In this document: positions 17,104 through 43,877 of the stretch, one piece after another
How the letters are laid out: every line of letters starts with the position of its first letter
Numbering within the stretch: position 1 is the first letter of the stretch
Assembly (NCBI RefSeq): GCF_900089955.1
Contig: NZ_FLQX01000162.1
Coordinates: 1 to 64,000 of the forward strand
Length of the DNA stretch: 64,000 bases
Reading direction: 5' to 3'
Source of the DNA: Candidatus Accumulibacter aalborgensis
GTDB lineage: Bacteria > Pseudomonadota > Gammaproteobacteria > Burkholderiales > Rhodocyclaceae
The notes under the pieces: model-generated
The model's database searches: none
Seen by the model: only the letters and a program-made list of their open reading frames with translations
Told to the model about the DNA's origin: nothing
Program-made: the position numbers and the translations under genes

Positions 17104-17126
17104 TGCGCTCACCGCTCGCAGAGCCT

Positions 17127-17156
17127 AAAAAAAACCCCGCCGAAGCGGGGTTTTTT
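17127..17156 (-). terminator. Rho-independent terminator, second ompA-type gene
   Basis: A perfect 12-bp inverted repeat with a CGAA loop (17129-17140 and 17145-17156) has a C/G core flanked by A and T runs. On the minus strand it follows the ompA copy 2 stop by 13 bases. The flanking A and T runs mean it could also work on the other strand. Confidence 0.9.
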
Positions 17157-17169
17157 CACATGGCCGGAA

Positions 17170-17838
17170 TTACTTGGTGCCGATGAGTTCGATGTCGACA
17201 CGACGGTCAGGCTGCAGGCAGGCAATGACCTTCGGGCTCGTCTTGCCGAGGCACTGATCAGGCTTGGTAACCGGATTCTTCTTGCCCTTGCCTTCGGTGT
17301 AGATACGGCTCGCTTCGACGCCCTTGCCGACCAGGTACTGCTTGACCGACGCAGCGCGCTGCTCGGAGAGTTTCTGGTTATAGGCATCGGTTCCGATGCG
17401 GTCGGTGTGACCAACGGCCAGGATGACTTCAAGCTTGAGTTCCTTCGACTTGGCGACCACTTCGTCGAGCTTCTTCTTGCCTTCCGGACGCAGAGTCGAC
17501 TTGTTGAAGTCGAACAGCGCATCGGCAGCGATGGTGATCTTGTCACCCGACGGCTTCGCCGACGGGGCGGCGGCCGGTGCGGCCTTGGCGATCACTGCCG
17601 GCTCACAGACTTCCCGCGGAATCAGATCTTTATCGCACTTGCAGCCCGCCGGATCCGTAGCTGCCGCGGCTGGCGTCCAGAACCCCGTGCGCCAGCAAAG
17701 GCCGGTACCGCTGATCACGACTTCGCCGCGCTGGTCGATCACGTAGACGCGATCAGCAGCGGTTTGGGCCTGTGTAGCGCCAGCGGCCGCGAAAAGGCCG
17801 ATAGAGGCCAGTAGGGTGGTGATGATTTTCGATTTCAA
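17170..17838 (-). CDS. OmpA-family outer-membrane/peptidoglycan-associated protein, copy 2
   Basis: This 222-residue paralogue of the protein at 15021-15701 has the same layout: signal peptide (ends TQA), Cys-containing N-terminal region, Ala/Pro linker and C-terminal OmpA domain. The two proteins differ in the signal peptide and the first 30 or so mature residues but are nearly identical over the last ~160. The frame starts at TTG 17838 (MKSKII), supported by GAGGAGG 6-7 bases upstream; no ATG lies nearby. Its own terminator follows. It is likely abundant in the envelope, judging from the strong ribosome site and terminator. Confidence 0.88.
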   Translation of the reverse strand: MKSKIITTLLASIGLFAAAGATQAQTAADRVYVIDQRGEVVISGTGLCWRTGFWTPAAAATDPAGCKCDKDLIPREVCEPAVIAKAAPAAAPSAKPSGDKITIAADALFDFNKSTLRPEGKKKLDEVVAKSKELKLEVILAVGHTDRIGTDAYNQKLSEQRAASVKQYLVGKGVEASRIYTEGKGKKNPVTKPDQCLGKTSPKVIACLQPDRRVDIELIGTK

Positions 17839-27549: not shown

Positions 27550-29058
27550 TCATTGCCGGTCTCGCGGTGCGCGAACAGACTCGTGCTCGCGTCGACTCCT
27601 TCGTTCGACGGCTGTGCACAGGATGTCGGCGGCAGCGTCGATGGCCTTGGCGTCAACCGCAGCAAATCCGAGAATCATCCCGGACCGGCACTGCCGAGAA
27701 TCCGCGTAATACATGGATAGCGGACGCAAGACGATGCCTGCGGCAAGCATTTCGCTGGACAGCGCCACGTCGTCGAGCGCTTGATTGAAAAAGTACGGAA
27801 GGTGCAAACCGGCCAGGCCTCCAGTGGTGCTCACCAGGGCGCCGAGCCGAGATTCGATGGCTTTGCGGAGCACGTTGCGCCGCTCCTGATAGATGCTTCG
27901 AACCCGTCGCAGGTGGGTGGTCAGGTGCCCCTCGTCGATGAATTCGGCGAGCGCGGCCTGTTCGATCAAGCGCCCTTCCCGGTAGAGTTCGGCATTGCCG
28001 ATGGCAAACGCTTCGGCCAGGTGTTCGGGGACCACAAGGTAGGCCAGGCGCAAGCCGGGAAACATGGTCTTGCTGAAAGTGCCCAGGTAAAGGACTCGTT
28101 GCGACCGCGCCTGACCGAACAGTGAGCCGATAGCGTACGGGTGATAGCGGATCTCATTGTCGTAGTCATCTTCTATGACCCAGGCGTTATGCTCCTCGGC
28201 CAGTTCCAGTAGCTTGATTCGCCGACTGAGCGACATCACCACCCCGGAGGGATATTGACTCGATGGCGAGACGAAAATCAGGCGCGGCGGTGACGCCGGA
28301 GCGGTTGGCAGCGAGATGCCCTGCTCGTCCAGCGGGATCGGTTCAATGTGTAGTCCGGTGGCTCGCAAGACGTTGCTGGCGCCCCAGTATCCCGGGTCCT
28401 CCATCCAGACCAGATCCTTTTCATCGCAGAGCATCCGCGCGCACAGGTCAATGGCCTGATGCGAACCGTTGAGGATGAGGATCTGCCGCGGGGAACAGGA
28501 CATCATTCGCGATGCTCGCAGGTACTCCGCCAATACTGCCTTCAACGGCCCATATCCGCCGTGGCCATAGCGTGCCAACTGGCGGTGTTCATGGCCAATG
28601 TACTTGGACAAAAGGCGCCGCCAGGTCGCGAAGGGAAACAGACTCACGTCCGGCACCCCGGGCACAAACGCACCGCTTTGAATCGGACTGCTGGTCGCGT
28701 GCTGGGCGATCTCGGCTCCGCGTCGCGACAGGGGTCTACCTTGCCTCCACGGGCGCCCGCGCTGCGCGTCGCCCGGCCCTGCGAATGAGAGGGCTTCCGA
28801 GACCAGAGTTCCGGAACCTCCGCGGCTCTGCAGATACCCTTCCACGCGCAGTTTCTCGTAGGCCCTCACCACCGTGCTTCTGCTGAGCCCGAGTTCGGAG
28901 GTCAGCGCGCGGGTCGGCGGGAGTGGGCTGCCCGGTGGCAATTCACGGTCGAGAATGAGGCGCCGAATCACAAGGTACAGGTTTGCCGGTGATCCGGGTT
29001 CATTGGCCTGGCCTTCTAGGCGAGAGCGGATCAGTTCCGCGCAAAGCGACTTGTCCAT
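27550..29058 (-). CDS. gabR: MocR/GabR-type regulator with aminotransferase domain
   Basis: This 502-residue fusion has an N-terminal GntR winged helix (ELPPGSPLPPTRALTSELGLSRSTVVRAYEKL, about residues 37-70), an Arg-rich linker and a type-I-fold PLP aminotransferase-like domain. PLP residues are visible: WMEDPGYWG, VSPSSQYPSG, IEDDYDNEI and the Schiff-base Lys in GTFSKTMFPGLRLAY. GabR-type proteins bind PLP and GABA to activate gabT/gabD. The divergent position next to gabD-gabT strongly supports this role. ATG 29058 with GAGG upstream is preferred to a TTG at 29073. Confidence 0.9.
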   Translation of the reverse strand: MDKSLCAELIRSRLEGQANEPGSPANLYLVIRRLILDRELPPGSPLPPTRALTSELGLSRSTVVRAYEKLRVEGYLQSRGGSGTLVSEALSFAGPGDAQRGRPWRQGRPLSRRGAEIAQHATSSPIQSGAFVPGVPDVSLFPFATWRRLLSKYIGHEHRQLARYGHGGYGPLKAVLAEYLRASRMMSCSPRQILILNGSHQAIDLCARMLCDEKDLVWMEDPGYWGASNVLRATGLHIEPIPLDEQGISLPTAPASPPRLIFVSPSSQYPSGVVMSLSRRIKLLELAEEHNAWVIEDDYDNEIRYHPYAIGSLFGQARSQRVLYLGTFSKTMFPGLRLAYLVVPEHLAEAFAIGNAELYREGRLIEQAALAEFIDEGHLTTHLRRVRSIYQERRNVLRKAIESRLGALVSTTGGLAGLHLPYFFNQALDDVALSSEMLAAGIVLRPLSMYYADSRQCRSGMILGFAAVDAKAIDAAADILCTAVERRSRREHESVRAPRDRQ

Positions 29059-29072
29059 CGGTGACCTCGCCA

Positions 29073-29104
29073 AATTGGTATCGTGATTGTCGCAACAATT
29101 GGTT
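29073..29104. promoter_or_regulatory. Candidate GabR-binding direct repeats
   Basis: Two direct AATTGGT(A/T) elements (29073-29080 and 29097-29104) lie 24 bp apart in the gabR-gabD divergent region. MocR-family regulators typically bind direct repeats with ATACCA/TGGTAT-like half-sites, and the first element reads TTGGTAT. This is suggestive only. Confidence 0.4.
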
Positions 29105-29235
29105 CAGTCTGGAACTGTTTGCGCCTGTACAGTAGCGCCAATTCGGGATGCGCAGGTAAAGGCTGCCTTACGCCCCGGTGACCGTGACCATGAAAGTCGC
29201 GCGAGCGATTGAACCAGCCAACAGGAGATAAGTCT

Positions 29236-30690
29236 TTGGACCTTGCCGATAAATCACTGCTCAAGCAGTTGTGCTACATCGATGGCGAATGGGTGGGCGC
29301 TGATAGTGCGCGGACCTTCACCGTGACCAACCCGGCTACCGGGGAGCCCCTGGCCGCCGTACCCGACGCGAGTAGCGCCGAAACCCGTCGCGCCATCGAG
29401 GCAGCGCGCGTTGCGCAGCCGGGATGGCGAGCCCGAACTGCCGGCGAGAGGGCGAAGATTCTGCGCCGTTGGCATGAACTGCTGCTTGCCAATCAGGAGG
29501 ACCTCGCTCGACTGATGACCGCAGAGCAGGGCAAGCCGCTTGCCGAATCACGCGGCGAAATCGCCTACGCGGCTTCGTTCATCGAGTGGTTTGCCGAGGA
29601 AGGGAAGCGAATCTACGGGGACATGATTCCCCCGCATCACGCTGACAAACGCGTACTGGTAGCCAAGGAACCGATCGGCGTCTGTGCCGCGATCACGCCG
29701 TGGAACTTTCCTGCCGCGATGATCACCCGCAAGGTCGGTCCGGCACTGGCGGCAGGCTGCACGATAGTGCTCAAGCCGGCTGAAGCGACGCCGCTGTCGG
29801 CACTTGCGCTGGCCGAGTTGGCGGAGCGAGCCGGTGTCCCCAAAGGAGTCTTCAATGTCCTCACCGGAGACCCGGTGGCCATCGGCGGCGAGTTGTGCGC
29901 CAATCCGACGGTGCGCAAGTTGAGCTTTACCGGGTCTACGGAGGTGGGTCGGATTCTCATGCAGCAGTGCGCACCGACGATCAAGAAGCTGTCCCTCGAA
30001 TTGGGCGGCAACGCACCGTTCATCGTCTTCGACGATGCCGACCTGGATGCCGCCGTGCAGGGAGCGATGCTCTCCAAGTATCGCAATACCGGCCAGACCT
30101 GCGTCTGCGCCAACCGATTGCTCGTCCAGGAAGGTATCCACGATGCATTCGTGGAAAAACTTGCCGCCGCGGTGGCCGCTCTGCGGGTCGGCAACGGCGT
30201 TGAAGACGGGGTCACACAAGGCCCGCTGATCGACGACGCGGCGCTCGTTAAAGTGGAAGATCTGGTCGCCGATGCTTGCGACAAGGGGGCTCGCATCGTC
30301 TGTGGCGGCAGGCGCCACAGCCTGGGGAGAACGTATTACGAGCCAACGATCCTCACCGGAGTGACGCCGGCGATGCGTATCGCTGACGAAGAGGTCTTCG
30401 GGCCGGTGGCGCCGGTGTTCACCTTCACGACCGAGGCCGATGCGGTGGCGATGGCCAACGATACCGAGTGTGGTCTGGCGTCGTACTTCTATACCGAGAA
30501 CCTGGCGCGCAGCTTGCGGGTGGCCAGCGCCCTGGAATACGGCATGGTCGGAATCAACACCGGTCTGATCTCGACCGAGGTGGCACCGTTCGGCGGCATG
30601 AAGTCCTCCGGGCTGGGTCGAGAGGGTTCCCGGTACGGAATCGAGGACTACGTGGAAATAAAATACATCTGTATCGGCGGGATCCAATGA
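29236..30690 (+). CDS. gabD: NAD(P)+-dependent succinate-semialdehyde dehydrogenase
   Basis: This 484-residue aldehyde dehydrogenase oxidises succinic semialdehyde to succinate. Motifs are ITPWNFPAAMITRKVGPALAAGC, FTGSTEVGR, the catalytic Glu in LELGGNAPFIVFDDAD and Cys in NTGQTCVCANR, and EVFGPVAPVF. Start TTG 29236 (MDLADKSLLKQLCYIDGEW) follows AGGAGA at proper distance and aligns with the E. coli GabD N terminus; an upstream TTG at 29209 lacks a ribosome site. It is the first gene of gabD-gabT, divergent from gabR. Succinate enters the TCA cycle; a DASS dicarboxylate transporter is encoded at 39682-41094. Confidence 0.94.
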   Translation: MDLADKSLLKQLCYIDGEWVGADSARTFTVTNPATGEPLAAVPDASSAETRRAIEAARVAQPGWRARTAGERAKILRRWHELLLANQEDLARLMTAEQGKPLAESRGEIAYAASFIEWFAEEGKRIYGDMIPPHHADKRVLVAKEPIGVCAAITPWNFPAAMITRKVGPALAAGCTIVLKPAEATPLSALALAELAERAGVPKGVFNVLTGDPVAIGGELCANPTVRKLSFTGSTEVGRILMQQCAPTIKKLSLELGGNAPFIVFDDADLDAAVQGAMLSKYRNTGQTCVCANRLLVQEGIHDAFVEKLAAAVAALRVGNGVEDGVTQGPLIDDAALVKVEDLVADACDKGARIVCGGRRHSLGRTYYEPTILTGVTPAMRIADEEVFGPVAPVFTFTTEADAVAMANDTECGLASYFYTENLARSLRVASALEYGMVGINTGLISTEVAPFGGMKSSGLGREGSRYGIEDYVEIKYICIGGIQ

Positions 30691-30722
30691 ACCGCCAAGT
30701 CAATTTTGCCAAGGAGATGAAC

Positions 30723-32030
30723 ATGAACGCACCGAACGAAAAGCTGACCCTGAAGACCAATTCCGAGTTGATGGCCCGACGCACGGCGGCGTTGCCGAGA
30801 GGTGTCGGCCAGGGACACGCGCTGTTCGCCGAAAGGGCCGAGAACGCAGAAATCTGGGATGTCGAAGGCGGCCGCTGGATCGACTTCTGCGCCGGTATTG
30901 CGGTGGTCAATACCGGGCACTGCCATCCCCGCATCGTCGCCGCGGCGCGCCAGCAACTGGCAGCATTTACCCATACCTGCTTTCAGGTTGTGGCCTACGA
31001 ATCGTACGTCGAGCTGTGTGAGCGCCTCAACGCCGCCGCGCCGGGTAGCACGCCGAAGAAATCATTTCTCGTCAATACCGGGGCAGAAGCCATAGAGAAT
31101 GCCGTCAAGATCGCCCGTGCGGCAACCGGACGCTCCGGCATGATCGCCTTCGGTGGCGGCTTCCATGGTCGCACCATGTTCGGCATGGCGCTGACCGGCA
31201 AGGTCGCTCCCTACAAGATCAAGTTCGGACCATTCCCGGGCGAGATCTTCCATGTTCCGTTCCCGAACGCCCTGCAGGGTATCTCGGAAGAGGATTCCAT
31301 CGCGGCCATCGAACGTCTGTTCGCGACCAGTATCGAAGCCTCGCGCGTTGCCGCCATCTTCATTGAACCGGTGCAGGGAGAAGGTGGCTACGTTCCGGCA
31401 CCGCTAGGCTTCCTGCGCCGCCTGCGGACACTGTGCGACGCGCACGGAATTCTGCTGGTTGCCGATGAAGTGCAGACGGGCATTGCCCGCTGCGGCAAAC
31501 TGTTTGCCAGCGAACACTATGGCGTCGAGCCCGACATCATCACCATGGCCAAAGGTCTCGGTGGCGGCTTGCCGGTCGCCGCGGTGGTCGGCAAGGCGCA
31601 CATCATGGACGCGGCAGACGTTGGCGGTCTCGGTTCCACCTATGCGGGCAATCCGGTGGCGGTTGCCGGAGCGCTGGCGGTGCTCGACGTGGTCGAGGAA
31701 GAACAGCTCTGCGCTCGCTCGATGGCGCTCGGTGAGCGCATGCGCACGCGCTTCAGCGCCATGATGGAGCAGTTCTCGACGATCGCCGAGGTGCGCGGAC
31801 TGGGCGCGATGACGGCGGTGGAGTTCTGCCGCAATGGTGACCCGCGGCAACCGGCTGCGGATATTGCCGCGGCACTGAAGACCGAAGCGGCCAAGCGCGG
31901 CTTGTTGCTCCTCTTGTGTGGGCCGCACGGCAATGTATTGCGGGTGATGGTTCCGCTGACCATCTCGGATGCGGTGCTCAATGAGGGCCTGGATATCATC
32001 GAGGCGTCGCTGCACGCGTTGAATGCCTGA
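30723..32030 (+). CDS. gabT: 4-aminobutyrate aminotransferase
   Basis: This 435-residue class-III PLP aminotransferase converts GABA and 2-oxoglutarate to succinic semialdehyde and glutamate. It shows FCAGIAVVNTGHCHPRIV, VNTGAEAIENAVKIAR, GGGFHGRT, IFIEPVQGEGGY, LLVADEVQTG and the Lys in TMAKGLGGGLPVAAVVG. ATG 30723 has AAGGAG 6 bases upstream. An ATG at 30687 overlapping the gabD stop is possible but would add 12 residues. It could also accept other omega-amines such as 5-aminovalerate, relevant because a lysine/ornithine/arginine-type decarboxylase lies in the facing operon. Confidence 0.93.
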   Translation: MNAPNEKLTLKTNSELMARRTAALPRGVGQGHALFAERAENAEIWDVEGGRWIDFCAGIAVVNTGHCHPRIVAAARQQLAAFTHTCFQVVAYESYVELCERLNAAAPGSTPKKSFLVNTGAEAIENAVKIARAATGRSGMIAFGGGFHGRTMFGMALTGKVAPYKIKFGPFPGEIFHVPFPNALQGISEEDSIAAIERLFATSIEASRVAAIFIEPVQGEGGYVPAPLGFLRRLRTLCDAHGILLVADEVQTGIARCGKLFASEHYGVEPDIITMAKGLGGGLPVAAVVGKAHIMDAADVGGLGSTYAGNPVAVAGALAVLDVVEEEQLCARSMALGERMRTRFSAMMEQFSTIAEVRGLGAMTAVEFCRNGDPRQPAADIAAALKTEAAKRGLLLLLCGPHGNVLRVMVPLTISDAVLNEGLDIIEASLHALNA

Positions 32031-32231: not shown

Positions 32232-33227
32232 ATGGTTCCTTTTTCAATTGCCGGCATCCAGATGAACATCTCGATGGAGCACGCGAACATCGATGCGATG
32301 GGGCACAAGCTGGATGTCCTGATGCACCGCTTTCCCTGGGTCCAGATGGTGGTGTTCAGCGAGTTGGCGCCGTTCGGACCGGCCCCGTACCACGCTCAAG
32401 CTGCGGGCGGTCCGGCTGAGCAGACTTTTTGCCACATGGCCGCCAAACACGGCCTCTGGCTTCTGCCGGGGTCGATGTTCGAACGCGTCGGTGACGACAT
32501 CTACAACACCACGCCGGTGATCGATCCGAATGGGAAGGTGGTGACACGCTACCGCAAGATGTTCCCCTTTCTCCCCTACGAAATGGGCATCAAGCCCGGG
32601 ACGGAATTCTGCACCTTCGACGTACCCAATATCGGGCGCTTCGGGGTTTCCATCTGCTACGACATGTGGTTCCCGGAAACCACCCGGACTCTGGTGTCAA
32701 TGGGCGCTGAATGCATCCTTCACCCAACCATGACCGACACTATCGACCGTGACGTCGAGCTGCCGATCGCGCGCGCCAGTGCCACGATCAACCAGTGCTA
32801 CTTCTTTGATATCAACGGCGTGGGCGACTGCGGAACGGGTCGGTCGATTGTCGTTGGCCCGTCAGGCTACGTGATCCACGAGGCGGGGGGTGGCGAAGAG
32901 ACCATGCCGGTGGAAATTGACCTGTCGAGGGTTCGCCGCGAGCGCGAAGTGGGAATCCGCGGCCTCGGCCAAACACTCAAGAGCTTTCGTGATCGGCCGA
33001 TCGAGTTCCCCGTCTACCAGAAGCACCTGGGCAGGCGGGACTATCTCGATAGTCTGGGTCCCCTGATCAAGCCGACGCGTGGCTCTCGGTCCGACGTTTT
33101 GGTGCCACCCGAGCGGGCGGTCTACTCAATGGACGGTTCCTTCCTCGAGGCCAACCCGGTCGTGGCGGATGCCGATGTGGCTGTGACCGGTGCGGACTCT
33201 ACGCCCTTGCTCCACGCCCATCTCTGA
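32232..33227 (+). CDS. Nitrilase-superfamily carbon-nitrogen hydrolase
   Basis: This 331-residue amidase-type enzyme carries the Glu-Lys-Cys triad at Glu44 (FSELAPFG), Lys109 (YRKMFPF) and Cys142 (SICYDMWFPE). The architecture fits aliphatic amidases or N-carbamoylputrescine amidase-like enzymes more than true nitrilases, but the substrate is not deducible. A ribosome site AAGGAG precedes ATG 32232. It lies 200 bases after gabT on the same strand, with a GC-rich hairpin-forming spacer, so co-transcription is uncertain. Context suggests hydrolysis of an amide linked to amine or GABA metabolism. The C-terminal ~60 residues beyond the fold are unusual in length. Confidence 0.8.
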   Translation: MVPFSIAGIQMNISMEHANIDAMGHKLDVLMHRFPWVQMVVFSELAPFGPAPYHAQAAGGPAEQTFCHMAAKHGLWLLPGSMFERVGDDIYNTTPVIDPNGKVVTRYRKMFPFLPYEMGIKPGTEFCTFDVPNIGRFGVSICYDMWFPETTRTLVSMGAECILHPTMTDTIDRDVELPIARASATINQCYFFDINGVGDCGTGRSIVVGPSGYVIHEAGGGEETMPVEIDLSRVRREREVGIRGLGQTLKSFRDRPIEFPVYQKHLGRRDYLDSLGPLIKPTRGSRSDVLVPPERAVYSMDGSFLEANPVVADADVAVTGADSTPLLHAHL

Positions 33228-33273: not shown

Positions 33274-34179
33274 TTAATCGTATGCCTTGTCGTTGGGCGA
33301 CTTGAACAGCTTCTTGAGTGCGTACGAGAGCTGGAAGTTGAGGTTCAGACCCTTCGGCGGGATTGGCTGCAGGAACCACTTGGCGTAGATCTTCTCGGCT
33401 TCGCCAGAGGTCATCACCTGGGCGAGCGCGCCATCGACGACTTTCTTGAACGCCGGGTCATCCTTGCGCATCATGCAGCCATAGGCTTCATATGACTGCG
33501 GCGTCCCGACCACTGCCCACTCGCTGGCGTTCTTGGCTTTGGCCATTTCGCCGTACAGCAACACTTCATCCATGACGAAGGCCACCGCACGGCCGCTCTC
33601 CAGGGTCAGGAACGCTTCCCCGTGATCCTTCGCGCTGATCACCTTCATCTTCATATTGTTGCCTTCGTTCATCTTGCGCAGTAGACGGTCGGAGGTAGTG
33701 CCGGCGGTGGTCACCACGCTCTTGCCGGCCAGGTCAGGAAAGTCCTTGATCCCGGAGTTGCTCTTGGTCATCAGACGGGTACCGACGACAAAGATGCTGT
33801 TCGAGAAGCTCACCTGTTTCTGACGATCGGTGGTGTTGGTCGTCGAACCGCATTCGAGGTCGACCGATCCGTTCTGGACGAGCGTGATGCGATTCTCGGA
33901 TGTGACGGGAATCAGCTTGACATCGAGCTTGGCCAGCTTCAATTCGGCCTTGATAGCATCTACCGCCTTGAGCATCAAGTCCTGCGAGTAGCCGATGACC
34001 TGCTGCTTGTCGTCATAGTACGAAAACGGGATCGACGACTCGCGATGCCCCAGTGTGATGACCCCGGTATCCTTGATCTTCTTCAGCGTACCAGTCAGTT
34101 CCTGCCCCTGCACTGGCGCCGACATCAGGGCAGTGGCAAGCGTCGCAGCAACGGCGAAGCGCCGTGAAATGGTGAACAT
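33274..34179 (-). CDS. Glutamate/aspartate-type ABC transporter substrate-binding protein
   Basis: This 301-residue periplasmic binding protein has a signal peptide (residues 1-26, ending VQGQ). The type-II fold is recognisable from GTLKKIKDTGVITLGHRESSIPFSYYD, VDLECGSTTNTTDRQKQVSFS and WFLQPIPPKGLNLNFQLS, closest to GltI of the Glu/Asp system. No permease or ATPase genes follow; it is the last gene of the decarboxylase run. It may work with a transporter encoded elsewhere or have been recruited as a sensor. Convergent with the nitrilase-family gene. Confidence 0.88.
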   Translation of the reverse strand: MFTISRRFAVAATLATALMSAPVQGQELTGTLKKIKDTGVITLGHRESSIPFSYYDDKQQVIGYSQDLMLKAVDAIKAELKLAKLDVKLIPVTSENRITLVQNGSVDLECGSTTNTTDRQKQVSFSNSIFVVGTRLMTKSNSGIKDFPDLAGKSVVTTAGTTSDRLLRKMNEGNNMKMKVISAKDHGEAFLTLESGRAVAFVMDEVLLYGEMAKAKNASEWAVVGTPQSYEAYGCMMRKDDPAFKKVVDGALAQVMTSGEAEKIYAKWFLQPIPPKGLNLNFQLSYALKKLFKSPNDKAYD

Positions 34180-34276
34180 CGTGCCTGTCTCCTTTGCAAA
34201 CTAAAATTGGTCACTGGCCGGAATGAAGATGACCCCGAGCCAAGACGAGATCCAAGTCCGTTATATCAACTCAGCC

Positions 34277-35299
34277 TCAGCTCGGGCCGATCGGGAACAC
34301 GATATCGCGCTCGCCGGCCTGCGGCGCGAACAACGACTGCGGCCAGCGCTGGTCTTGCCAAAACAGCTCGACGCTGCGGCTTGCAGGCTGGTACACCGCA
34401 CTGTACAGCGTCCCGTAGCCGCGCCGGTAACTGGTCTGGAACAGCGGCGGCTGCAGCAACGCAGCAGCGACTGCCGGCAGGGAATGGGTTTTATCCACCA
34501 CCCAGTACTCCAGAGCAGCGAGTCGCTCGACAGCGCTGGTCGCTTTCGCGTGCGCTGGCCAGTCCACCTGATGCTGGAAGTTGGTGATCGCCCGACGGCG
34601 GGTCACATAGGTGGCCTGGTCGGGGCCAACATACACCGTGGCCCAATGGCTATTGGTATCAAGGAGCGTGATGCTGTAAGACATGTGCGCTGGTACGCGC
34701 TTGAGGATATCGCACGCTTCCTCCACCGTGGTCGACACCTCGAGCAGGTAGCGCATCACCAGGGGAATGCCGAAGCCTTCGCCGGCTTGCGTCTTGCCCC
34801 CGAAGCTCAGTGACGCAGCCAGGCCAGCCTCGTTGATGCCGTCGAGCGCACCCCAAAGGCAGTCGCCCATGGCCAGCACCCGTTGGCCGCACCAGCGGGT
34901 GGCCAGCCAGTTGCCTTCCAGCAAATCCGGAGAATAGTCGTAGTTGCGCAGCAGGGCGGGGCCTTGCTCGCCGAAGGGATCGATCCACACCGCTTGCGAG
35001 CAACCGGCAATGTAGACCGGCGGGCACCACATCGAGAGAATGCGTGCTTCGATGTCGCCACCTCCGGCGAGCTCCACCAGCCGCTCCCAGGTGGATACCA
35101 GCTCGGGCATGTGCTTGCGCAGCGCACGCCGACAGTCGAGGTAGCTGGGCCGTCCGAAGACGCCGTTGCGCAGGTACCAGTCGCGGTAACCTGGCCAGCA
35201 GCGCTCGAACAAATCCTGCCACGATGGGCCGGGAGTGTCCTCCACCAGCGCGGTGAAACGCTGGTGGATCGGCTGGTCCGAGTGTAGCAAGGTGGTCAA
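34277..35299 (-). CDS. C45/Ntn-hydrolase-type acyltransferase or linear-amide C-N hydrolase
   Basis: This 340-residue protein resembles the acyl-CoA:6-aminopenicillanate acyltransferase (C45) family of self-processing Ntn hydrolases. Gly99-Cys100 in VYIAGCSQAVW fits the autocatalytic site (Gly102-Cys103 in the fungal enzyme). NYDYSPDLLEGNW, GMNEAGLA-like DGINEAGLAASLSFGG and CDILKRVPAHMSYSITLLD are typical. It starts at TTG 35299, overlapping the ATP-grasp stop by 4 bases, with no other start available; coupling is likely. Family members cleave or transfer amide-linked acyl groups. Next to an ATP-grasp ligase this suggests make-and-break of the same amide bond. Confidence 0.78.
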   Translation of the reverse strand: MTTLLHSDQPIHQRFTALVEDTPGPSWQDLFERCWPGYRDWYLRNGVFGRPSYLDCRRALRKHMPELVSTWERLVELAGGGDIEARILSMWCPPVYIAGCSQAVWIDPFGEQGPALLRNYDYSPDLLEGNWLATRWCGQRVLAMGDCLWGALDGINEAGLAASLSFGGKTQAGEGFGIPLVMRYLLEVSTTVEEACDILKRVPAHMSYSITLLDTNSHWATVYVGPDQATYVTRRRAITNFQHQVDWPAHAKATSAVERLAALEYWVVDKTHSLPAVAAALLQPPLFQTSYRRGYGTLYSAVYQPASRSVELFWQDQRWPQSLFAPQAGERDIVFPIGPS

Positions 35300-36753
35300 A
35301 GGATTTTGAACGAACCCGGGGCCGGGGCCGCCTCGTGCTGGGTAGTGACGATGGGTTCGGCGGCGTAGTATTGCTTGATGCCACGAATCCAGTCGCGGGC
35401 GCGGATGTTGAGTTTGAAGTTATCGTCCATCGAGCGGCCCCGCGTGATCAGGATACCCAGGTCAGCGCCTTCGTAGCGGTAGTCGCCCGGCCCCGTGATG
35501 CGCATGAAGAAGGCCTCGCGCTCGCTGTCGATCGCCTTGCGGTTGTAGTCGAAGCGCTGGTAGCTGACGCCGCCGTCCTCGCCCATGCGATAGATGCCCG
35601 TCGCCGGCGCGTGGGTCACCCGGTCGACATGCTTTTCGGTGTACTTCATCACCACCTGTGACCAGGAATCAATGAAGTGCGGCTGCGCCCAACGCTCATT
35701 GATTTCACGCACGTTGAGGTCGAAAGGCACTCCCGAGAACTCGAGCAGGTGGAACAGGAACAGCGGCGCATCGGCATAGGCATGCGCGGCATGGTTGGTC
35801 ATCGGGCTGGCGCCGCAGACGCGCGGGTTCAGTTCGCCGAGGTAGACCTCGCCGTTGTCCTGGTCGATCAGGAAATCGAGGTCGAAATAGCCCCGATAAC
35901 CTTCTTCCAGCAACTGGTTGCCAAAGCGCTCGGTCATGTCACGGACCTTGGCGACCACCTCTGCGGAGAAGGCGCCGGGGAAGATCTCGTTGCCACACCA
36001 ACCACCCTTGTAAGGCGTGAGTTCGCGAGCACCGACCACCTCGGTGAGCAGCGGGCCGACCAGCGTTCCCGACTGCGTGGCGCAGGCTTCGAGCGTCGCC
36101 CCGCGGCAGTTGATGCGCTTCATGATCTTGATTTCGGGATCCTTGCAGATTTCTTCCTCGTGCTTTTTGAAATCATCTTCCGAAGAGATAAAGAAGGTCG
36201 TGTGGCCTGAGTCACCAAAGGCCGACTGGAGTACCAGTTCCTTGCCCAGGCCGCTGCGCTCGGCAATTTCCATCAGGTTGGCGTAGCTGCTGACCTTTTC
36301 CAGTGCATTCGGCACCGACGCCACGCCGGCCTTGTTGCCGATGCGCACGGTCTCCATCTTGTTGTCGCAGCGCTGCCGCAGCTTGGCCGGCGGAAACCAG
36401 ACTTCCATGCCGAGTTCCTTGGCCAGTACCTCGGTCTTCTCGTCGAACATCAGGAAGGTCGCCACCGGCCGGCCACCGCGGCGCTCGATCAGGTCAACCA
36501 CGTCCTTGTGTTGCAGCAGATAGTTGTTGATGTCCTCGATCGACTCGAATTCGTCGTGCGGCGTCTCCTGCGGCACGAAAACGTTCGGATGCCGGCCATC
36601 GAAGCAATCGATGTAACTGATGTAGCGGAAACGGTTGATCCAGCGGTCCATCCCCAACAGGTTGAAGTTGGTGGCGCTGATGAAGTAGATCGGCCGCTCA
36701 TTGCGGTGGAACATCAGCAGCAAATCGGACATGTTCTTTACGGGATGGGTCAT
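35296..36753 (-). CDS. ATP-grasp ligase (biotin-carboxylase-like)
   Basis: This 485-residue enzyme has an ATP-grasp core: the KELVLQSAFGDSGHTTFFI lid region, the metal-binding YFDLDFLIDQDNGEVYLGELNPRVCGASP and a GGWCGNEIFPG loop. No biotin-carboxylase C-terminal domain or biotinyl partner is encoded nearby, so it is more likely a carboxylate-amine ligase that activates a carboxylate as acyl phosphate. The substrate is unknown. ATG 36753 has AGGAG upstream. It sits between the decarboxylase (48-base gap) and the C45 hydrolase (4-base overlap). An amine made by the decarboxylase is an obvious candidate substrate, by inference. Confidence 0.8.
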   Translation of the reverse strand: MTHPVKNMSDLLLMFHRNERPIYFISATNFNLLGMDRWINRFRYISYIDCFDGRHPNVFVPQETPHDEFESIEDINNYLLQHKDVVDLIERRGGRPVATFLMFDEKTEVLAKELGMEVWFPPAKLRQRCDNKMETVRIGNKAGVASVPNALEKVSSYANLMEIAERSGLGKELVLQSAFGDSGHTTFFISSEDDFKKHEEEICKDPEIKIMKRINCRGATLEACATQSGTLVGPLLTEVVGARELTPYKGGWCGNEIFPGAFSAEVVAKVRDMTERFGNQLLEEGYRGYFDLDFLIDQDNGEVYLGELNPRVCGASPMTNHAAHAYADAPLFLFHLLEFSGVPFDLNVREINERWAQPHFIDSWSQVVMKYTEKHVDRVTHAPATGIYRMGEDGGVSYQRFDYNRKAIDSEREAFFMRITGPGDYRYEGADLGILITRGRSMDDNFKLNIRARDWIRGIKQYYAAEPIVTTQHEAAPAPGSFKIL

Positions 36754-36801
36754 TGTCTTCTCCTCGTCGTTATGACTGTCATGGGACTGCTCTTTTGGGT
36801 A

Positions 36802-39627
36802 CTACCTGTCGGCCAATTCATCCGTTTCGGCCTGTGAATTGATCTGCGCCGTCCACACGGCGTTCGCCTGCGCTGAACGCTCCAGCGCGGCCACGGTGTA
36901 GATGCGAAAGCCCAGTTCAGCCCGGAAACCATGGATCTCTCGCACATCGAGCGCCTGCATGAAGGTCAATATCTCGGCACTGATCACCTGACCCGGCACC
37001 AGAATCGGGAAGCCGGGCGGGTAGGGGATGACGAACTGGGCGGAAACGCATTCGCGCCCGTCCTTCATCGCCTGTTCGGTCTCCTTCATGCCGAGGTACT
37101 CGCAGTTCCCCTCGTCGTAGCCCAGGAAGAAAGCGCTGCGGATGTCGCCATCGCGAGTCTCGCTGCGCCCATCGATGCTGCGGCCGCGGAATGCGGTGTG
37201 GAAACACGAAAAATTCGGCAGCGGCGGTAGCTCGACGGTGAGTGATCGCACACGTCTTTCATGGATGCGGCGTTCGAGGGTGCTCATGTCGTCCACCCTC
37301 TGGTCGATGTCACGAGCGATGTTCACCAGCACTTCGATCAGGTAGGCGATCGTCGAGCGGGTAGTGCCGATGTTGGTCATGAAGAGCACGGTATTGCGCG
37401 AAGTCTTGTTGATCTGGATGTCGTACTTGTCCGCCAGATACTTGTTCTTCATGGTGTCGCCATCCATACCCGACAGGCCGATGGCCAGCGTGGCGCGGCT
37501 TGGATCGAGCGCAAACTCGTCGGTATGCCAGGCGTTGAACAGGTTGACCCAGCCGCTTTCGACGTTGTACAGCGACTCGACCTGCGACTCACGGAACTCC
37601 TCCGGCACCAGGTCTACCACCGTCAGGAAGCGGAAGTAACGCTTCAGCAGGGGATGTGTTTTTACCTGCTCGCGCAGATTCATCGCCAGCTCGAGCTGGC
37701 GCTGCACCAGCTCGTAGCCTTCGAGTTCCATCTGCCGCCGGCCGACGTCAAGGGTGGCGAGGATCTGGTAGTTGGGTGAAGTCGAGGTGTGAGTCATGTA
37801 GGCCTCATGGAAGGCCTCCTCGGCCTTGTCCTTGAAGTCCACATCCCAAACGTGAATCATTGATCCCTGGCGCAGCGCAGTCAGCGTCTTGTGCGTGGAC
37901 TGCGTGGCATAAACGCGCACCCTGGCCTTTTTCGGATCGGGAAGCAGGTGGGTGTTGAGCACCCGTTCGTCGTCGGCCCAGGCCGCCTCGTCAAAACTGT
38001 TGGCGAATTCCGCGTAGCGCAGGGCATAGGCTTCGCTCTGGAACATCTCGGTCAGCTTGGCGGCAGCCGCCATGCCGGTGCGCTGGCGGTAGACCGGGTG
38101 GAAGCGTGCGAAGGCGAACCAGGCCTCGTCCCACAGGAACACCAGATCGGGCTTGATCGCCAGGCACTCGAGCATCAGCCGCTCGACGTCGTAGACGATG
38201 CCGTCGAAGGTGCAGTTGGTCAGCAGAACCATGCGCACGCGGCTCAGCGTTCCGGCGTGGCGTAACTCAAGCAGCGTTTCCTTGATGTGGCGAATCGGTA
38301 CCGCACCGTACATCGAGTACTCGTGCAGCGGATAGGCTTCGAGGTAGGTGATCTGGGCGCCGGCCAGCACCATGCCGTAGTGGTGCGATTTGTGGCAGTT
38401 GCGGTCGACCAGAACGATGTCATCCGGCCGGACCATCGCCTGGACGACGATCTTGTTGGCGGTCGAGGTGCCATTGGTGGCGAAGAAGGTGCGACGGGCC
38501 CCGAAGGCGCGCGCGGCGTACTCTTGAGCCAGTTTCAGCGAACCCGTCGGTTCGAGGAGCGAATCGAGCCCGCCGGCAGTCGCCGAGGTTTCGGCCATGA
38601 ACAGGTTCATGCCGTAGAACTGGCCCAGGTCGCCGATCCAGTTTGAATTCATGATCGACTTGCCGCGCGCCAGCGGCAGCGCGTGGAAAACGCCGGTAGG
38701 CTGCTTCGCGTATTCGCGCAGCGCATTGAAGAACGGTGCCTGGTAGCGCTCGGAAACACCCTTCAGGATCGAGTAATAGAGTTCAAGCTGATCTTCCTCG
38801 CCGAAGAACACGCGCCGGAAGATCGCCGCCGCCTTGGCTGCGACGTCTTCCACCCTGGCGTCGGTCACCAGATAAAGGTCCAGCTCGGGGCGCAACTTGG
38901 CAATCTGTTGACCCAGGAGCTGGCCGCGCTCGGACTCCGGCAGGTCTTCCCCAGTGACATCGAGGCCTTCAAAGAAGCGCCGCGCGACTACTTCGGGGAC
39001 GTACAGCGAGCGGTAGGGAAAGCCGTAGCCGATCACCACGGCCTGCAGGTTGAAGTTCACCATCGACGCAACCAGGGCATCCTCGAAGGTCGGCACCACG
39101 ACCATGTCGAAAATGAAATCGTCGTCGGGGCGGCGACGGCTGCGAATCCGACGGCGTAGCGCCTCCTCTTCTTCGGCCGGCAGGTCATCGACCATCAGGA
39201 CTTCGAAGTACGGGCAGCGCATTTGCGTCTGGAACTCCTTTTCGGTTTCCATCTGCGTAGGCAACTCGGCGTCGCTGGTGCCTCCGGGACTGCCGTGGCG
39301 ATAGGTCAGCGAGGCCAGCATGCGGTGGTGGCGGCGAGCGACGATCGCAGCATGCGCCAGCTCGCCGCGCGCGATGAATCCACACAGCTCGGCGAAGGCA
39401 CGGCGGCCCGGATAGGCCCAGCAGACCTCGATCGGCGTCAGGATCTCAGTCAATTCGTGCAAGTGCGCCAGGCGCGCCTCGCGATCGCTTTGCTCGCGGG
39501 TCCGGTTCGCGAGTTGGGACAGCTCATCGACCAGCTCGATCCAGCTTTCGGTTCGCACTTCCCAGACGCTGCGGTGGCGGCTCAGCGGGGCCGTGGCGTG
39601 GCTGCCGGGGGTATTATCTATATTCAT
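36802..39627 (-). CDS. Orn/Lys/Arg-type decarboxylase with long N-terminal extension, 941 residues
   Basis: This PLP fold-type I decarboxylase belongs to the ornithine/lysine/arginine group. Active-site features are FATNGTSTANK, DRNCHKSHHYGM, LLTNCTFDGIVYD, LWDEAWFAF and the Schiff-base Lys at about residue 580 in TQSTHKTLTALRQGS. It ends with the C-terminal domain containing VIPYPPGFPILVPGQV. E. coli enzymes have 711-756 residues with the Lys near 355-367; here about 200 extra N-terminal residues precede and include the acidic/basic EEEEALRRRIRSRRRPDDD. Which amino acid is used cannot be read off. ATG 39627 with GGAG upstream. It is the third gene of the lipoprotein-transporter-decarboxylase-ligase-hydrolase run. 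Confidence 0.88.
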   Translation of the reverse strand: MNIDNTPGSHATAPLSRHRSVWEVRTESWIELVDELSQLANRTREQSDREARLAHLHELTEILTPIEVCWAYPGRRAFAELCGFIARGELAHAAIVARRHHRMLASLTYRHGSPGGTSDAELPTQMETEKEFQTQMRCPYFEVLMVDDLPAEEEEALRRRIRSRRRPDDDFIFDMVVVPTFEDALVASMVNFNLQAVVIGYGFPYRSLYVPEVVARRFFEGLDVTGEDLPESERGQLLGQQIAKLRPELDLYLVTDARVEDVAAKAAAIFRRVFFGEEDQLELYYSILKGVSERYQAPFFNALREYAKQPTGVFHALPLARGKSIMNSNWIGDLGQFYGMNLFMAETSATAGGLDSLLEPTGSLKLAQEYAARAFGARRTFFATNGTSTANKIVVQAMVRPDDIVLVDRNCHKSHHYGMVLAGAQITYLEAYPLHEYSMYGAVPIRHIKETLLELRHAGTLSRVRMVLLTNCTFDGIVYDVERLMLECLAIKPDLVFLWDEAWFAFARFHPVYRQRTGMAAAAKLTEMFQSEAYALRYAEFANSFDEAAWADDERVLNTHLLPDPKKARVRVYATQSTHKTLTALRQGSMIHVWDVDFKDKAEEAFHEAYMTHTSTSPNYQILATLDVGRRQMELEGYELVQRQLELAMNLREQVKTHPLLKRYFRFLTVVDLVPEEFRESQVESLYNVESGWVNLFNAWHTDEFALDPSRATLAIGLSGMDGDTMKNKYLADKYDIQINKTSRNTVLFMTNIGTTRSTIAYLIEVLVNIARDIDQRVDDMSTLERRIHERRVRSLTVELPPLPNFSCFHTAFRGRSIDGRSETRDGDIRSAFFLGYDEGNCEYLGMKETEQAMKDGRECVSAQFVIPYPPGFPILVPGQVISAEILTFMQALDVREIHGFRAELGFRIYTVAALERSAQANAVWTAQINSQAETDELADR

Positions 39628-39681
39628 GACTTGTCTCCAAAGGTGCCGGCGATGCTTCGCCGCCGGTCGTATAGGCGTCTT

Positions 39682-41094
39682 TTATCCGACCCACATGATC
39701 CACGGGGTGCCGATGACCAGAAACACCACGGTGCAGAAAAGCGTCGTCAGGATTCCCAGGCGGTACAGTTCTCCCTGCTTGAGATAACCGCTGGCGACGA
39801 AGATGATGTTCTGGCTGCCGCCCTGTGGTGTGATGACCGAGAAGTAGCTGCTGGCAAACAGCAGCGCATAAGCCATCAAAGGAACCGGAACCCCCGATTT
39901 CACGCCAACATCGAGAAACACGCCGAGTAGCGCCAGAACCTGTGCATTCTGGCTGACGAAACCGAAGTGGAGCAACACATAGATGACCAGCAAGGCGACG
40001 TAGGCGACCGGCCAGGAGAGACCTGCAAGCCCTACCGCCAAGCGTTCGCCGACGTAGCCCATGAAGCCCATTTCGTTGAGCTGCCCGCTCATGCCGAAAA
40101 GCACCGCCAGCCAGATGAAAGTCACCAAAGTGCCGCCCTGCTCGCTCATGTCCTCCATCGTCAGAACGCCGGTCATCATCAGCGTGGCGAGGCCGGCGAG
40201 GGCAATCGCCGTCGCATTGAGGTTGTAGGGGGCAGCCAGCACCCAGCCGGTGACCATGACCAGGAACGTCACCGCAGTGATCCGCTCGTTACGCGACATC
40301 GGCCCCATGACTCGCAATTCTTTACGCGCGTTCTCCGGGGCCTCCGGGGTGTCGGTAATTCCCGGCGGAAAAAGATAATAGAGCACCAGCGGCAGCAGGG
40401 CGAGCACCACCAGACACGGTACTGAGGAGGCGACCAGCCACGAGCCAAAATTGACTTTGAGCCCTTTTTCGGCGGCCAGCCCGGCGCCAACCGGATTGCC
40501 CGAGGTGGCGGTGAACCACAGCGCCGACGTGATTGCCAGGCTGGCCATGCCGCAGAACATCAGGTAGCCGCCGAGACGCCGCTTTTTGTCGTCGTCAGGT
40601 GTCGAGCCGCTGTTTTGCGCCAGCGCCAGGATGACCGGGAAGAGCACACCACCGCGCGCGGTATTGCTCGGGAAGCCGGGGGCGATCAAGGTATCGGTGA
40701 TGAAGATGCTGTACGCCAGGCCGAGCGTCGATTTCCCGAATACCGAGATCACGTACAGACTGATCCTTTTGCCGAGCCCACTCTTGACCACCGACTGCGA
40801 GACCAGGAAAGCGGTGATCACCAGGAGCACGATGTTGTTGGCAAAAGCACCGTAGGCCTTGGCCGGAGTCAGTGTGCCAGTGAGCACCACGATCGCGCAG
40901 AACAGCAGCGAAGAAGTGAATAGCGGGAAGACATTGAGGACCACCGTGGTGATCGCCGACGCGAAGATTGCAAACAGATGCCAGGACTCACGCGTCAGTC
41001 CGGCGGGAACCGGCGTGAACCAGAGGCCAAAGAAGAGAACCAGGAGGCACACCAACTTCACGATTCTTCCCGTCCCGAAAGCGGCTGTACTCAT
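39682..41094 (-). CDS. DASS/SLC13-family anion symporter
   Basis: This 470-residue polytopic inner-membrane transporter belongs to the divalent anion:Na+ symporter family. About a dozen hydrophobic segments are seen. The SNT-like motifs appear as GFPSNTARGG and later VSQNAQVLALL and ITPQGGSQNIIF. Family members move di- and tricarboxylates (succinate, malate, citrate), sulfate or taurine. ATG 41094 has AGGAGGT upstream and overlaps the lipoprotein stop by 4 bases. Placement before the decarboxylase suggests it handles a substrate or product of that pathway, perhaps a dicarboxylate or an N-acyl amino acid. Confidence 0.88.
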   Translation of the reverse strand: MSTAAFGTGRIVKLVCLLVLFFGLWFTPVPAGLTRESWHLFAIFASAITTVVLNVFPLFTSSLLFCAIVVLTGTLTPAKAYGAFANNIVLLVITAFLVSQSVVKSGLGKRISLYVISVFGKSTLGLAYSIFITDTLIAPGFPSNTARGGVLFPVILALAQNSGSTPDDDKKRRLGGYLMFCGMASLAITSALWFTATSGNPVGAGLAAEKGLKVNFGSWLVASSVPCLVVLALLPLVLYYLFPPGITDTPEAPENARKELRVMGPMSRNERITAVTFLVMVTGWVLAAPYNLNATAIALAGLATLMMTGVLTMEDMSEQGGTLVTFIWLAVLFGMSGQLNEMGFMGYVGERLAVGLAGLSWPVAYVALLVIYVLLHFGFVSQNAQVLALLGVFLDVGVKSGVPVPLMAYALLFASSYFSVITPQGGSQNIIFVASGYLKQGELYRLGILTTLFCTVVFLVIGTPWIMWVG

Positions 41095-41720
41095 TTTGGA
41101 CCTCCTGCAGTGGTGGGGGCAAGCGCACTGGGCGAGCCGAGGCGCGCCCAACCGTTCAGATCGACCGATCGCCCGGCAAGTTCGTCGCCTTCAATGGCGC
41201 CAAGGCGCTGCCATTTGAAGCTGTATTCACCGCTGATCCCGGCGTAGCGGCCGGTACCGCCGATAAACCGGCCTTCGATCAGTTGGCCGGGGCCAAACCC
41301 TTCGCCGCTCAACTCGCTGAAGGCCTTGTCGCCATGCTCATCAGTCCACACACTGCGCCCCTGCATGCCGGTGGTGGTATCGGAAAAGCCGATGGCTTCG
41401 GACTGGAAACCCAGATTCAGTCGCTGCTTGCCACCCAGCAACAGCGAACCGCTGACTCTAAAAATGCCCGCTCGTTGCCCCGGTGCAAGGTCCATGACCT
41501 GTCGGCTCCCAGTGACAGTCCAGTCGCCCGTGAAAGGTCGTTTGTCGTCCGTTGCTGCCGCCGCCGGCTGACTCGCCAGGGGACTCGACTGACTCGCCGA
41601 CGGACTCGACTGATTCGCCGGCGGACTCGACTGTTGGCCGCAGGCGGTCACCAACAACGCGCTGAGCAGAACAATGCTTCGCGAGTGATGACCTATGGAT
41701 GGGCTGCTTGGTAAACGCAT
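41091..41720 (-). CDS. Lipoprotein with a barrel-like domain
   Basis: This 209-residue protein has a lipoprotein signal (LSALLVTAC, lipid-modified Cys about residue 27). A short tandem Ser/Gln/Pro repeat follows (SPxxxSQSSP-like, about residues 30-50), then a beta-rich domain with DWTVTGSRQVMDLAPGQRAGIFRVSG- and GGTGRYAGISGEYSFKW-type segments. These resemble allene-oxide-cyclase/dirigent-like small barrels, but only by pattern. It leads the six-gene run, with AGGAGG before its ATG and a 4-base overlap with the transporter gene. Function unknown; possibly an outer-membrane partner of the transporter. Confidence 0.65.
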   Translation of the reverse strand: MRLPSSPSIGHHSRSIVLLSALLVTACGQQSSPPANQSSPSASQSSPLASQPAAAATDDKRPFTGDWTVTGSRQVMDLAPGQRAGIFRVSGSLLLGGKQRLNLGFQSEAIGFSDTTTGMQGRSVWTDEHGDKAFSELSGEGFGPGQLIEGRFIGGTGRYAGISGEYSFKWQRLGAIEGDELAGRSVDLNGWARLGSPSALAPTTAGGPK

Positions 41721-43669: not shown

Positions 43670-43877
43670 GGGCATGGCTCCGGGGAAAGTGTCGCAGTAG
43701 ATGAATATGATCACAGTTGCATGAACATGGCAAGTAATTCTGGAGCAATGAACTAGGCAATTACATGCCAAACAAGATGTTTTCCGGCGAGCATGCTACG
43801 GTTTTTAAACGTTGCGATAATGCAAAAACACAGTGGGACGGCGAGAAATGACAGAAGTTCAACTCATCCTGGACTTC

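Follow-up and report, generated by a model that had tools for sequence, protein, structure and literature searches.

The DNA analysed in this study (a window of 64,000 nucleotides from Candidatus Accumulibacter aalborgensis) harbours a conserved unit, whose core consists of the genes for a decarboxylase (DEC), an ATP-grasp ligase (ATPG) and a C45-family hydrolase (C45) and of a facing gene for a nitrilase-superfamily enzyme (NIT). We tentatively interpret the locus as a GABA-centred catabolic unit, in which an amide of GABA would be made and broken by ATPG, C45 and NIT, a reading to which we assign somewhat less than an even chance. The gene content of the locus, its intact catalytic residues, the linkage of its genes and the replacement of DEC by arginine-to-GABA genes in related loci were all obtained by computation. 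A first-pass annotation of the same DNA had recognised no described pathway with this set of genes and our literature searches agree, as they returned neither a description of the combination of DEC, ATPG, C45 and NIT, nor reports of enzyme tests on these proteins, nor a link to cyanophycin.

The coordinates of six open reading frames, all on the minus strand, confirm the compact operon proposed initially, in which neighbouring genes overlap twice by four bases (41091-41094; 35296-35299) and otherwise lie 54, 48 and 97 bases apart. Its first two genes are peripheral and encode a putative lipoprotein (41091..41720), whose translation contains the lipobox LVTAC and which yields no family match in Pfam or NCBIfam, and a DASS-family sodium-coupled anion symporter (39682..41094; PF00939; TIGR00785 with 308.7 bits at a cut-off of 198.6) starting with ATG, an upstream TTG alternative extending the gene to 41151. 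Both are local additions found in 6 of 80 related loci each, a distribution too narrow to retain a role for either. They are followed by DEC (36802..39627), a 941-residue PLP-dependent decarboxylase of the Orn/Lys/Arg (OKR) superfamily (PF01276, E 6e-75), by ATPG (35296..36753; 485 residues), assigned by NF005096 (786 bits, cut-off 684) and its predicted fold, and by C45 (34277..35299; 340 residues, TTG start), an Ntn-type amide hydrolase or acyltransferase (PF03417; NF040521 with 156.5 bits, cut-off 85). The last gene (33274..34179) encodes a GltI-like glutamate/aspartate periplasmic binding protein of 301 residues (NF008063 with 443.7 bits, cut-off 375), a type present in 14/80 loci, and the operon contains no permease gene. 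Converging on the operon from the plus strand are genes for a gabD-like succinate-semialdehyde dehydrogenase (29209..30690; TIGR01780 with 725 bits, cut-off 646), a gabT-like 4-aminobutyrate transaminase (30687..32030, start inferred from the translation; TIGR00700 with 561.6 bits, cut-off 506.65) and the carbon-nitrogen hydrolase NIT (32232..33227; PF00795). A MocR/PdxR-type gene on the minus strand (27550..29073), which exceeds the PdxR cut-off (NF052282, 385 versus 320 bits) and stays below those for rhizopine MocR (461 versus 650) and GabR (263.6 versus 600), is likely the local regulator of the gab side and recurs in 13/80 loci. Scans for promoters and terminators gave no excess over shuffled sequences.

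The conservation of the unit was investigated in the best 80 of 305 related loci, with counts obtained by tblastn. In all 80, C45 follows ATPG on the same strand, and of 28 genomes of the genus, the same 14 contain ATPG, C45 and NIT (for ATPG and C45, Fisher p 5e-8, uncorrected for kinship). The pairing of ATPG and C45 exceeds chance, and the two genes did not fail to co-occur in other genomes, which upholds the conserved pair suggested by the first-pass annotation. Its grouping of the nitrilase and the GABA transaminase with this pair is similarly supported by their shared distribution in the genus, where DEC and GabT are each found in 13/28 genomes, all within the ATPG-positive 14. In contrast to these module-specific genes, gabD is found in 27/28 genomes, and a gabD resembling the local copy (86%) resides in genome G548, which has no unit. 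The four core genes form a single cluster in Acinetobacter baylyi (L016), a species amenable to laboratory work. Besides polyphosphate-accumulating bacteria of sludge, carriers of the unit include Acinetobacter, Burkholderiales and Rhodobacterales, as well as symbiotic-type plasmids of Rhizobium. Three loci that branch deepest (L141-L143) contain DEC, ATPG and C45 with no NIT or gabT nearby, and stretches of Aquitalea contain NIT, ATPG and C45 without a GABA source. Both arrangements would fit if the unit were biosynthetic, such that a GABA-containing pseudo-dipeptide, acting as osmolyte or signal, would be made and recycled, with GabT and GabD draining the surplus. We consider this unlikely, since all genomes of the genus that have GabT also carry the unit (13/13), a link that looks catabolic, and no recurring gene for an osmolyte or for export was noticed.

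The proteins of the ligase-hydrolase pair and NIT display the features of their families. ATPG has no Pfam match, and its predicted model (pLDDT 89.7) resembles biotin carboxylase, PurK and GARS in Foldseek searches (best E 5e-18, with 10-16% identity among the 50 matches listed). Together with this fold, the ExNxR residues E307, N309 and R311, conserved in 82/82 sequences, place the protein in the ATP-grasp superfamily. NF005096 carries the name 'biotin carboxylase'. However, the active-site motif of biotin carboxylases, N-x-R-x-Q-V-E-H, is found in 0/82 sequences, and a biotinyl AMKM-type motif is absent from ATPG in all 82, which led us to reject a role as biotin-dependent carboxylase. In C45, the predicted nucleophile Cys100 is retained in 81/81 sequences, and the model (pLDDT 94.7) shows a fold akin to isopenicillin N acyltransferase, whose structure 2x1c is the top Foldseek match (E 9e-14). 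The triad of NIT (E44/K109/C142) is intact in 56/56 sequences.

DEC is of the long form exemplified by Rv2531c and matches the PDB chains 9n0n/9n0o over its full length with 809 bits in sequence and about 1132 bits in profile comparisons. Its membership in the OKR superfamily is reflected in the conservation of the PLP-binding Lys580 and of the phosphate and ring contacts H579, D500, W503, T387 and S388 in each of 66 aligned members (alignment and tree exclude translations that contain a stop or whose length falls beyond 850-1100 residues). Equally invariant (66/66) are Asn740 and Arg744, which in a sequence alignment correspond to E526/P530 in CadA, E532/L536 in SpeF and T571/D575 in AdiA. 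CadA E526 and SpeF E532 are the proposed site for the distal amine of the substrate (PMC5607190). The acidic residue expected of a lysine or ornithine decarboxylase is thus replaced by asparagine throughout. Together with the transporters and the lack of agmatinase-like genes described below, these substitutions suggest that DEC is probably not an ornithine, lysine or arginine decarboxylase, as the first-pass annotation had assumed, and that its substrate is likely an acidic amino acid, with glutamate as the most likely candidate. GadB as a source of GABA elsewhere in the genome was discarded, as the only PF00282 protein has no tblastn match to E. coli GadB (1e-5) and matches only models of the diaminobutyrate/PanP type, far below cut-off.

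The residues also bear on a route resembling the E. coli Puu pathway with unrelated enzymes, where DEC would make a polyamine-type amine from ornithine, lysine or arginine, ATPG would block one of its amino groups, GabT and GabD would oxidise the other end and C45 and NIT would deblock the product to GABA. The linkage of ligase and amide hydrolase in 80/80 loci, the matching phylogenetic profiles of gabT and NIT and the assignment of DEC to PF01276 are all in accord with such a route, which nevertheless appears quite improbable in light of the exchange of the proposed distal-amine glutamate for asparagine near an invariant arginine, the acidic-type transporters at DEC loci, the AspT-type partner in the sister lineage and the lack of agmatinase-like genes described below. 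For the same reasons, a polyamine-type product is probably not formed. A strict parallel to the gamma-glutamyl-putrescine route, with which the first-pass annotation had compared the locus, lacks its middle step, because the annotated neighbouring genes include none that we recognised as a PuuB-like amine oxidase; what endures of that proposal is the logic of a ligase acting with a hydrolase, partly supported by the conserved pair, whereas its polyamine framing finds no support in the DEC residues and the transporters.

Additional hints come from the transporters encoded next to DEC. In a sister lineage, comprising nine genomes where ATPG was not found, decarboxylase and exchanger are neighbours, as an AspT-type antiporter gene adjoins DEC in 9/9 cases; six of these genomes (G179, G183, G256, G303, G466, G470) are not among the ATPG matches genome-wide, and in G562, G634 and G676 ATPG was judged absent on 18-kb stretches. 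AspT was found at 0/11 loci of genomes with ATPG (ten covered by tblastn on 150 loci with no match at 1e-5, and G580 searched separately). PF06826 was confirmed for the DEC-adjacent antiporters of L173, L174 and L176, and the others are 66-95% identical to the L176 copy. The AspT-linked decarboxylases emerge from one fork of a quick tree (SH-aLRT 100) and keep the NKTSRN motif in 9/9 cases. Among ATPG-C45 loci, glutamate/dicarboxylate-type transporter components were detected in 26/56 loci with DEC versus 0/24 others (Fisher 1.2e-5), based on queries picked from transporters noticed in DEC loci and in part assigned only to subfamily, with several of the 26 being near-copies (six are Accumulibacter loci) and the other 30/56 DEC loci containing none.

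In its known case, AspT exchanges aspartate for alanine. A conversion of aspartate to beta-alanine would also fit the arrangement in G466, one of the nine genomes, which contains a canonical AspT and an aspartate 4-decarboxylase, an observation that counts against the choice of glutamate. We have thus considered that DEC might be an aspartate 1-decarboxylase, whose product beta-alanine would be converted by ATPG into a beta-alanyl amide that is cleaved by C45. Insect Ebony and Tan offer a parallel for the synthesis and cleavage of such an amide, with the beta-alanyl-amine hydrolase Tan itself belonging to the C45 family, and an aspartate 4-decarboxylase is found near DEC in L174. Still, we attribute a low probability to this assignment, as in 8/9 cases the antiporter next to DEC falls into a clade sharing about 30% identity with the second AspT encoded there, as the model scores of GabT and GabD mark both as GABA enzymes and as the arginine route that replaces DEC elsewhere yields GABA.

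This replacement concerns the source of GABA, which among the 80 loci is DEC in 56, genes of an arginine route in 13, both in none and neither in 11, the latter as judged within the analysed stretch. The 13 loci contain genes for a 5-guanidino-2-oxopentanoate decarboxylase, a D-amino acid dehydrogenase or a racemase in place of DEC, a route that ends in GABA. Since arginine-to-GABA enzymes replace DEC and no locus has both, GABA would be the product common to the two types. At E 1e-8, where the transporter and agmatinase counts were rerun with the permease of the arginine route included, this APC-type permease is found in 11/13 arginine-route loci, 1/56 DEC loci (a weak match of 67 bits) and 1/11 others, and an agmatinase-like gene in 9/13 arginine-route loci and 0/56 DEC loci. 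The replacement could alternatively imply that DEC is an arginine decarboxylase, with both locus types devoted to arginine catabolism and ATPG, C45 and NIT handling agmatine or 4-guanidinobutyrate, and the DEAW motif that DEC shares with AdiA, where CadA and SpeF have DSAW, would conform with this assignment. We regard it as very unlikely, given the absence of agmatinase-like genes from DEC loci and the alignment of AdiA Asp575 with Arg744 of DEC, and it would leave AspT and the acidic-type transporters unexplained.

Returning to the GABA-centred unit, from these properties we infer the substrate of DEC and all reactions, including the amide step around GABA. DEC would produce GABA by decarboxylating an acidic amino acid, for which glutamate is the most likely candidate, and GabT and GabD, both exceeding the cut-offs of GABA-pathway enzymes, would convert GABA to succinate. 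ATPG may form an ATP-dependent amide between GABA (or glutamate) and a second metabolite, which C45, with NIT as second amidohydrolase, would open to return GABA. If present in a single compartment, ATPG and C45 would run a futile cycle, which regulation or an intervening step would have to prevent. The 11 loci with neither source of GABA, the lack of NIT and gabT near L141-L143 and the gabD of G548 likewise speak against the reading. In a general form, a new family of OKR-superfamily glutamate decarboxylases, coupled to AspT in one lineage, may feed an ATP-dependent GABA-conjugation cycle of a dedicated ATP-grasp ligase, a C45 hydrolase and a nitrilase-type amidase, together forming an as yet undescribed GABA pathway of bacteria, with a source that is interchangeable with arginine catabolism, a generalisation that is possible rather than probable. 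The unit offers a candidate function for three families that are misnamed or unnamed, namely the 'biotin carboxylase' NF005096, a clade of C45 peptidases and the long OKR decarboxylases including Rv2531c. If correct, the reading would extend the decarboxylation of acidic amino acids to an unrelated enzyme family and would bring a new amide chemistry of GABA to the groups of carriers named above.

Among known systems, the unit resembles the E. coli Puu pathway (the ligase PuuA, PuuB, PuuC, the hydrolase PuuD and PuuE) in that a GABA transaminase accompanies enzymes that would form, with ATP, and hydrolyse an amide in the context of GABA, but the protein families differ and GABA would originate from the decarboxylase or the arginine route instead of putrescine. 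In 150 loci, tblastn (1e-10) found no match to PuuA and a single match to PuuD, in the itself weakly matching locus L085, and a Puu-type system defined by homologues of both is thus absent from these loci. The predicted conversion of glutamate via GABA to succinate, and the decarboxylase and exchanger of the sister lineage, recall the GABA shunt with GadB/GadC, from which the unit differs in a decarboxylase of the OKR superfamily instead of PF00282, an AspT-type exchanger and the additional ligase, C45 and NIT. The described arginine transaminase or racemase routes are not known to involve the ATP-grasp/C45 pair. Genes of such a route, which includes AruI and a guanidinobutyrase (CATCH-N; PMC7268258), replace DEC in 13/80 loci. 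The full-length homologue of DEC in Mycobacterium tuberculosis, Rv2531c, corresponds to 9N0O, with 9n0n/9n0p appearing to be the same protein, and its activity is reported as unclarified (PMC12910592). In the alignment, Rv2531c carries an isoleucine at the position of Arg744 and therefore possibly acts on another substrate. Finally, the C45 model shares the Ntn fold of isopenicillin N acyltransferase, acid ceramidase and NAAA, at 13-17% identity among the matches listed.

The operon at 33274-41720 contains the six genes of the first-pass annotation with the spacing described there and, on the opposing side, a nitrilase-superfamily CN hydrolase (NIT), gabT and gabD are found, with a MocR-type regulator located farther out. 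Its ATP-grasp ligase (ATPG) is 89-91% identical to proteins of Candidatus Accumulibacter MAGs, the nearest named relatives at the locus, and the host genome comprises 4.7 Mb. In alignments, the catalytic residues look intact, with Lys580 of the 941-residue OKR-superfamily PLP decarboxylase (DEC) kept in 66 of 66 rows, Cys100 of the Ntn-type amide hydrolase (C45) in 81 of 81, Glu44/Lys109/Cys142 of NIT in 56 of 56 and Glu307/Asn309/Arg311 of ATPG in 82 of 82.

The proposed pairing of ATPG and C45 is borne out by the best 80 of 305 confirmed ATPG relatives from the GTDB contig collection, where C45 adjoins ATPG on the same strand at all 80 loci. At the bit-score thresholds used, and with 22 of the 80 stretches shorter than full, the sequence examined around ATPG includes DEC at 56 loci, a NIT-type hydrolase at 65, GabT at 28 and GabD at 16. 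Among 398 genomes drawn evenly from the phylum, ATPG was detected at 1e-30 in 10 in addition to the source genome, and both DEC and C45 are present at the loci of these 10. Within the genus, ATPG, C45 and NIT each occur in the same 14 of 28 genomes, 13 of which also contain DEC (the exception being 72% complete) and 13 GabT (the exception being split into 820 contigs); the other 14 hold none of the five at the thresholds used. GabD is widespread (27/28 genomes), and the local-type gabD is also found in a genus genome lacking the unit (G548). NIT, ATPG, C45, DEC and GabT thus form one unit, to which genes for a lipoprotein, a DASS transporter and a binding protein have been added. At the deepest DEC-ATPG-C45 loci, neither NIT nor gabT was seen.

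The unit is duplicated in several Accumulibacter genomes, as two paralogues that differ in gene order (L004 and L036 of the same MAG, G536, G538 and G543), and the frame of the DEC match contains one in-frame TGA in two genus genomes (G531:C1 and G542:C1), perhaps by assembly error or decay. On Rhizobium leguminosarum plasmids (L114, L116), DEC-ATPG(-C45) is located near nifA or a RiPP cluster, and eight Sinorhizobium records match ATPG only in part. Downstream of the unit at L145 (18306-19364, genome G515), a gene scores above the EutB hydroxyectoine dehydratase cut-off NF005680. No account of the unit was found in open-access papers on Rv2531c, 9N0N, C45/ATP-grasp operons, OKR/AspT glutamate decarboxylation and GABA/ATP-grasp clusters; subscription literature was mostly outside this scope and absence is unproven.

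The ATPG model (pLDDT 89.7) matches biotin carboxylases, PurK and GARS, with 10-16% identity among the matches listed. Since the biotin-carboxylase motif is absent in 82 of 82 rows, this function was rejected and the equivalog name 'biotin carboxylase' of NCBIfam NF005096 looks wrong for the family. The C45 model (pLDDT 94.7) matches isopenicillin N acyltransferase, acid ceramidase, NAAA, bile salt hydrolases and penicillin V acylases, all of them linear-amide enzymes, and no named NCBIfam family or PDB chain matches NIT, a nitrilase-superfamily protein, at 70 bits or more. Judged by family, one enzyme would use ATP to form an amide or peptide linkage and two would open C-N bonds. The simplest scheme tying these activities to GABA would be an amide of GABA (or glutamate) that is formed and then reopened; no gene in the annotated neighbourhoods points to the amide partner.

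DEC is absent from 13 of the 80 loci (in Thiofilum, Thiothrix, Shinella, Labrys and other Rhizobiales), which encode instead a D-amino acid dehydrogenase (13), a 5-guanidino-2-oxopentanoate decarboxylase (11), a racemase-type protein (11) and an agmatinase-family ureohydrolase (9). Such genes take arginine to GABA in the arginine transaminase/racemase route. For the related IlvB1 of S. meliloti, PMC7268258 describes a preference for 5-amino-2-oxopentanoate. Both sets coincide in none of the 80 loci, and none of the 56 DEC loci contains an agmatinase-like match, even at 1e-8. In 11 loci, neither DEC nor arginine-route genes are present within the stretch examined, which is under 10 kb for L028 and L043. 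Locus L112 encodes a fusion of an alanine-racemase-type N-terminal and an arginase-family C-terminal domain (15779-17566; Pfam, L112 only), possibly an arginine racemase extended by a ureohydrolase tail, with relatives in 11 of the 80 loci at 250 bits or more.

Glutamate/dicarboxylate-type transporter components (TAXI-TRAP, presumably of this substrate type, SDF, GltI-like and DASS) accompany 26 of 56 DEC loci, against 0 of 24 others (Fisher p 1.2e-5, with queries taken from the compared loci themselves and related loci not independent), and are absent from the remaining 30 DEC loci. The opposite pattern holds for the APC-type permease found with the arginine genes (11/13 arginine-route, 1/56 DEC at 67 bits and 1/11 other loci). 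If DEC turns glutamate into GABA, both types of locus would supply GABA to the NIT-ATPG-C45 set. Several findings count against this reading: the 11 loci with neither GABA source, the deepest loci with no NIT or gabT seen, the 30 DEC loci lacking such transporters, and L174, which aspartate would suit equally.

DEC also occurs in another context. Besides the source genome, 16 of the 398 phylum genomes contain it, 10 being the ATPG genomes and six not among the ATPG matches listed, and 149 genomes from a single family contributed three more DEC loci without ATPG and one with it at the locus (G580). An AspT-type antiporter gene directly adjoins DEC in 9/9 genomes found without ATPG; no AspT match was seen at the locus in the 11 ATPG-bearing genomes. 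Eight of the nine antiporters constitute one clade (66-95% identical to the L176 copy), about 30% identical to a second AspT present in several of these loci, and the ninth genome (G466) holds a canonical AspT plus an aspartate 4-decarboxylase. At L174, aspartate would fit as DEC substrate too. In a quick tree with some long branches, the nine AspT-linked DECs, which retain the NKTSRN motif, form a single fork (SH-aLRT 100), whose place among the ATPG-linked DECs is unsure. A SulP-type permease gene adjoins the operon in the window (41963-43771), and relatives of 29-30% identity also adjoin AspT-linked DEC in 4 of 6 loci (L175-L178).

Aligned with CadA, AdiA and SpeF of E. coli K-12, DEC retains the PLP pocket. 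The position of CadA Glu526 and SpeF Glu532 is occupied by Asn740, an asparagine in 66 of 66 rows, and is followed four residues later by Arg744, equally kept in 66/66, whereas AdiA contains Thr571 and Asp575 at these positions. Glu526 is named in PMC5607190 as a proposed substrate site of lysine decarboxylase; assigning a substrate to DEC from two alignment positions is fragile. Rv2531c, whose activity is given as unclarified in PMC12910592, is a homologue of DEC over its full length but differs by an Ile in place of Arg744.
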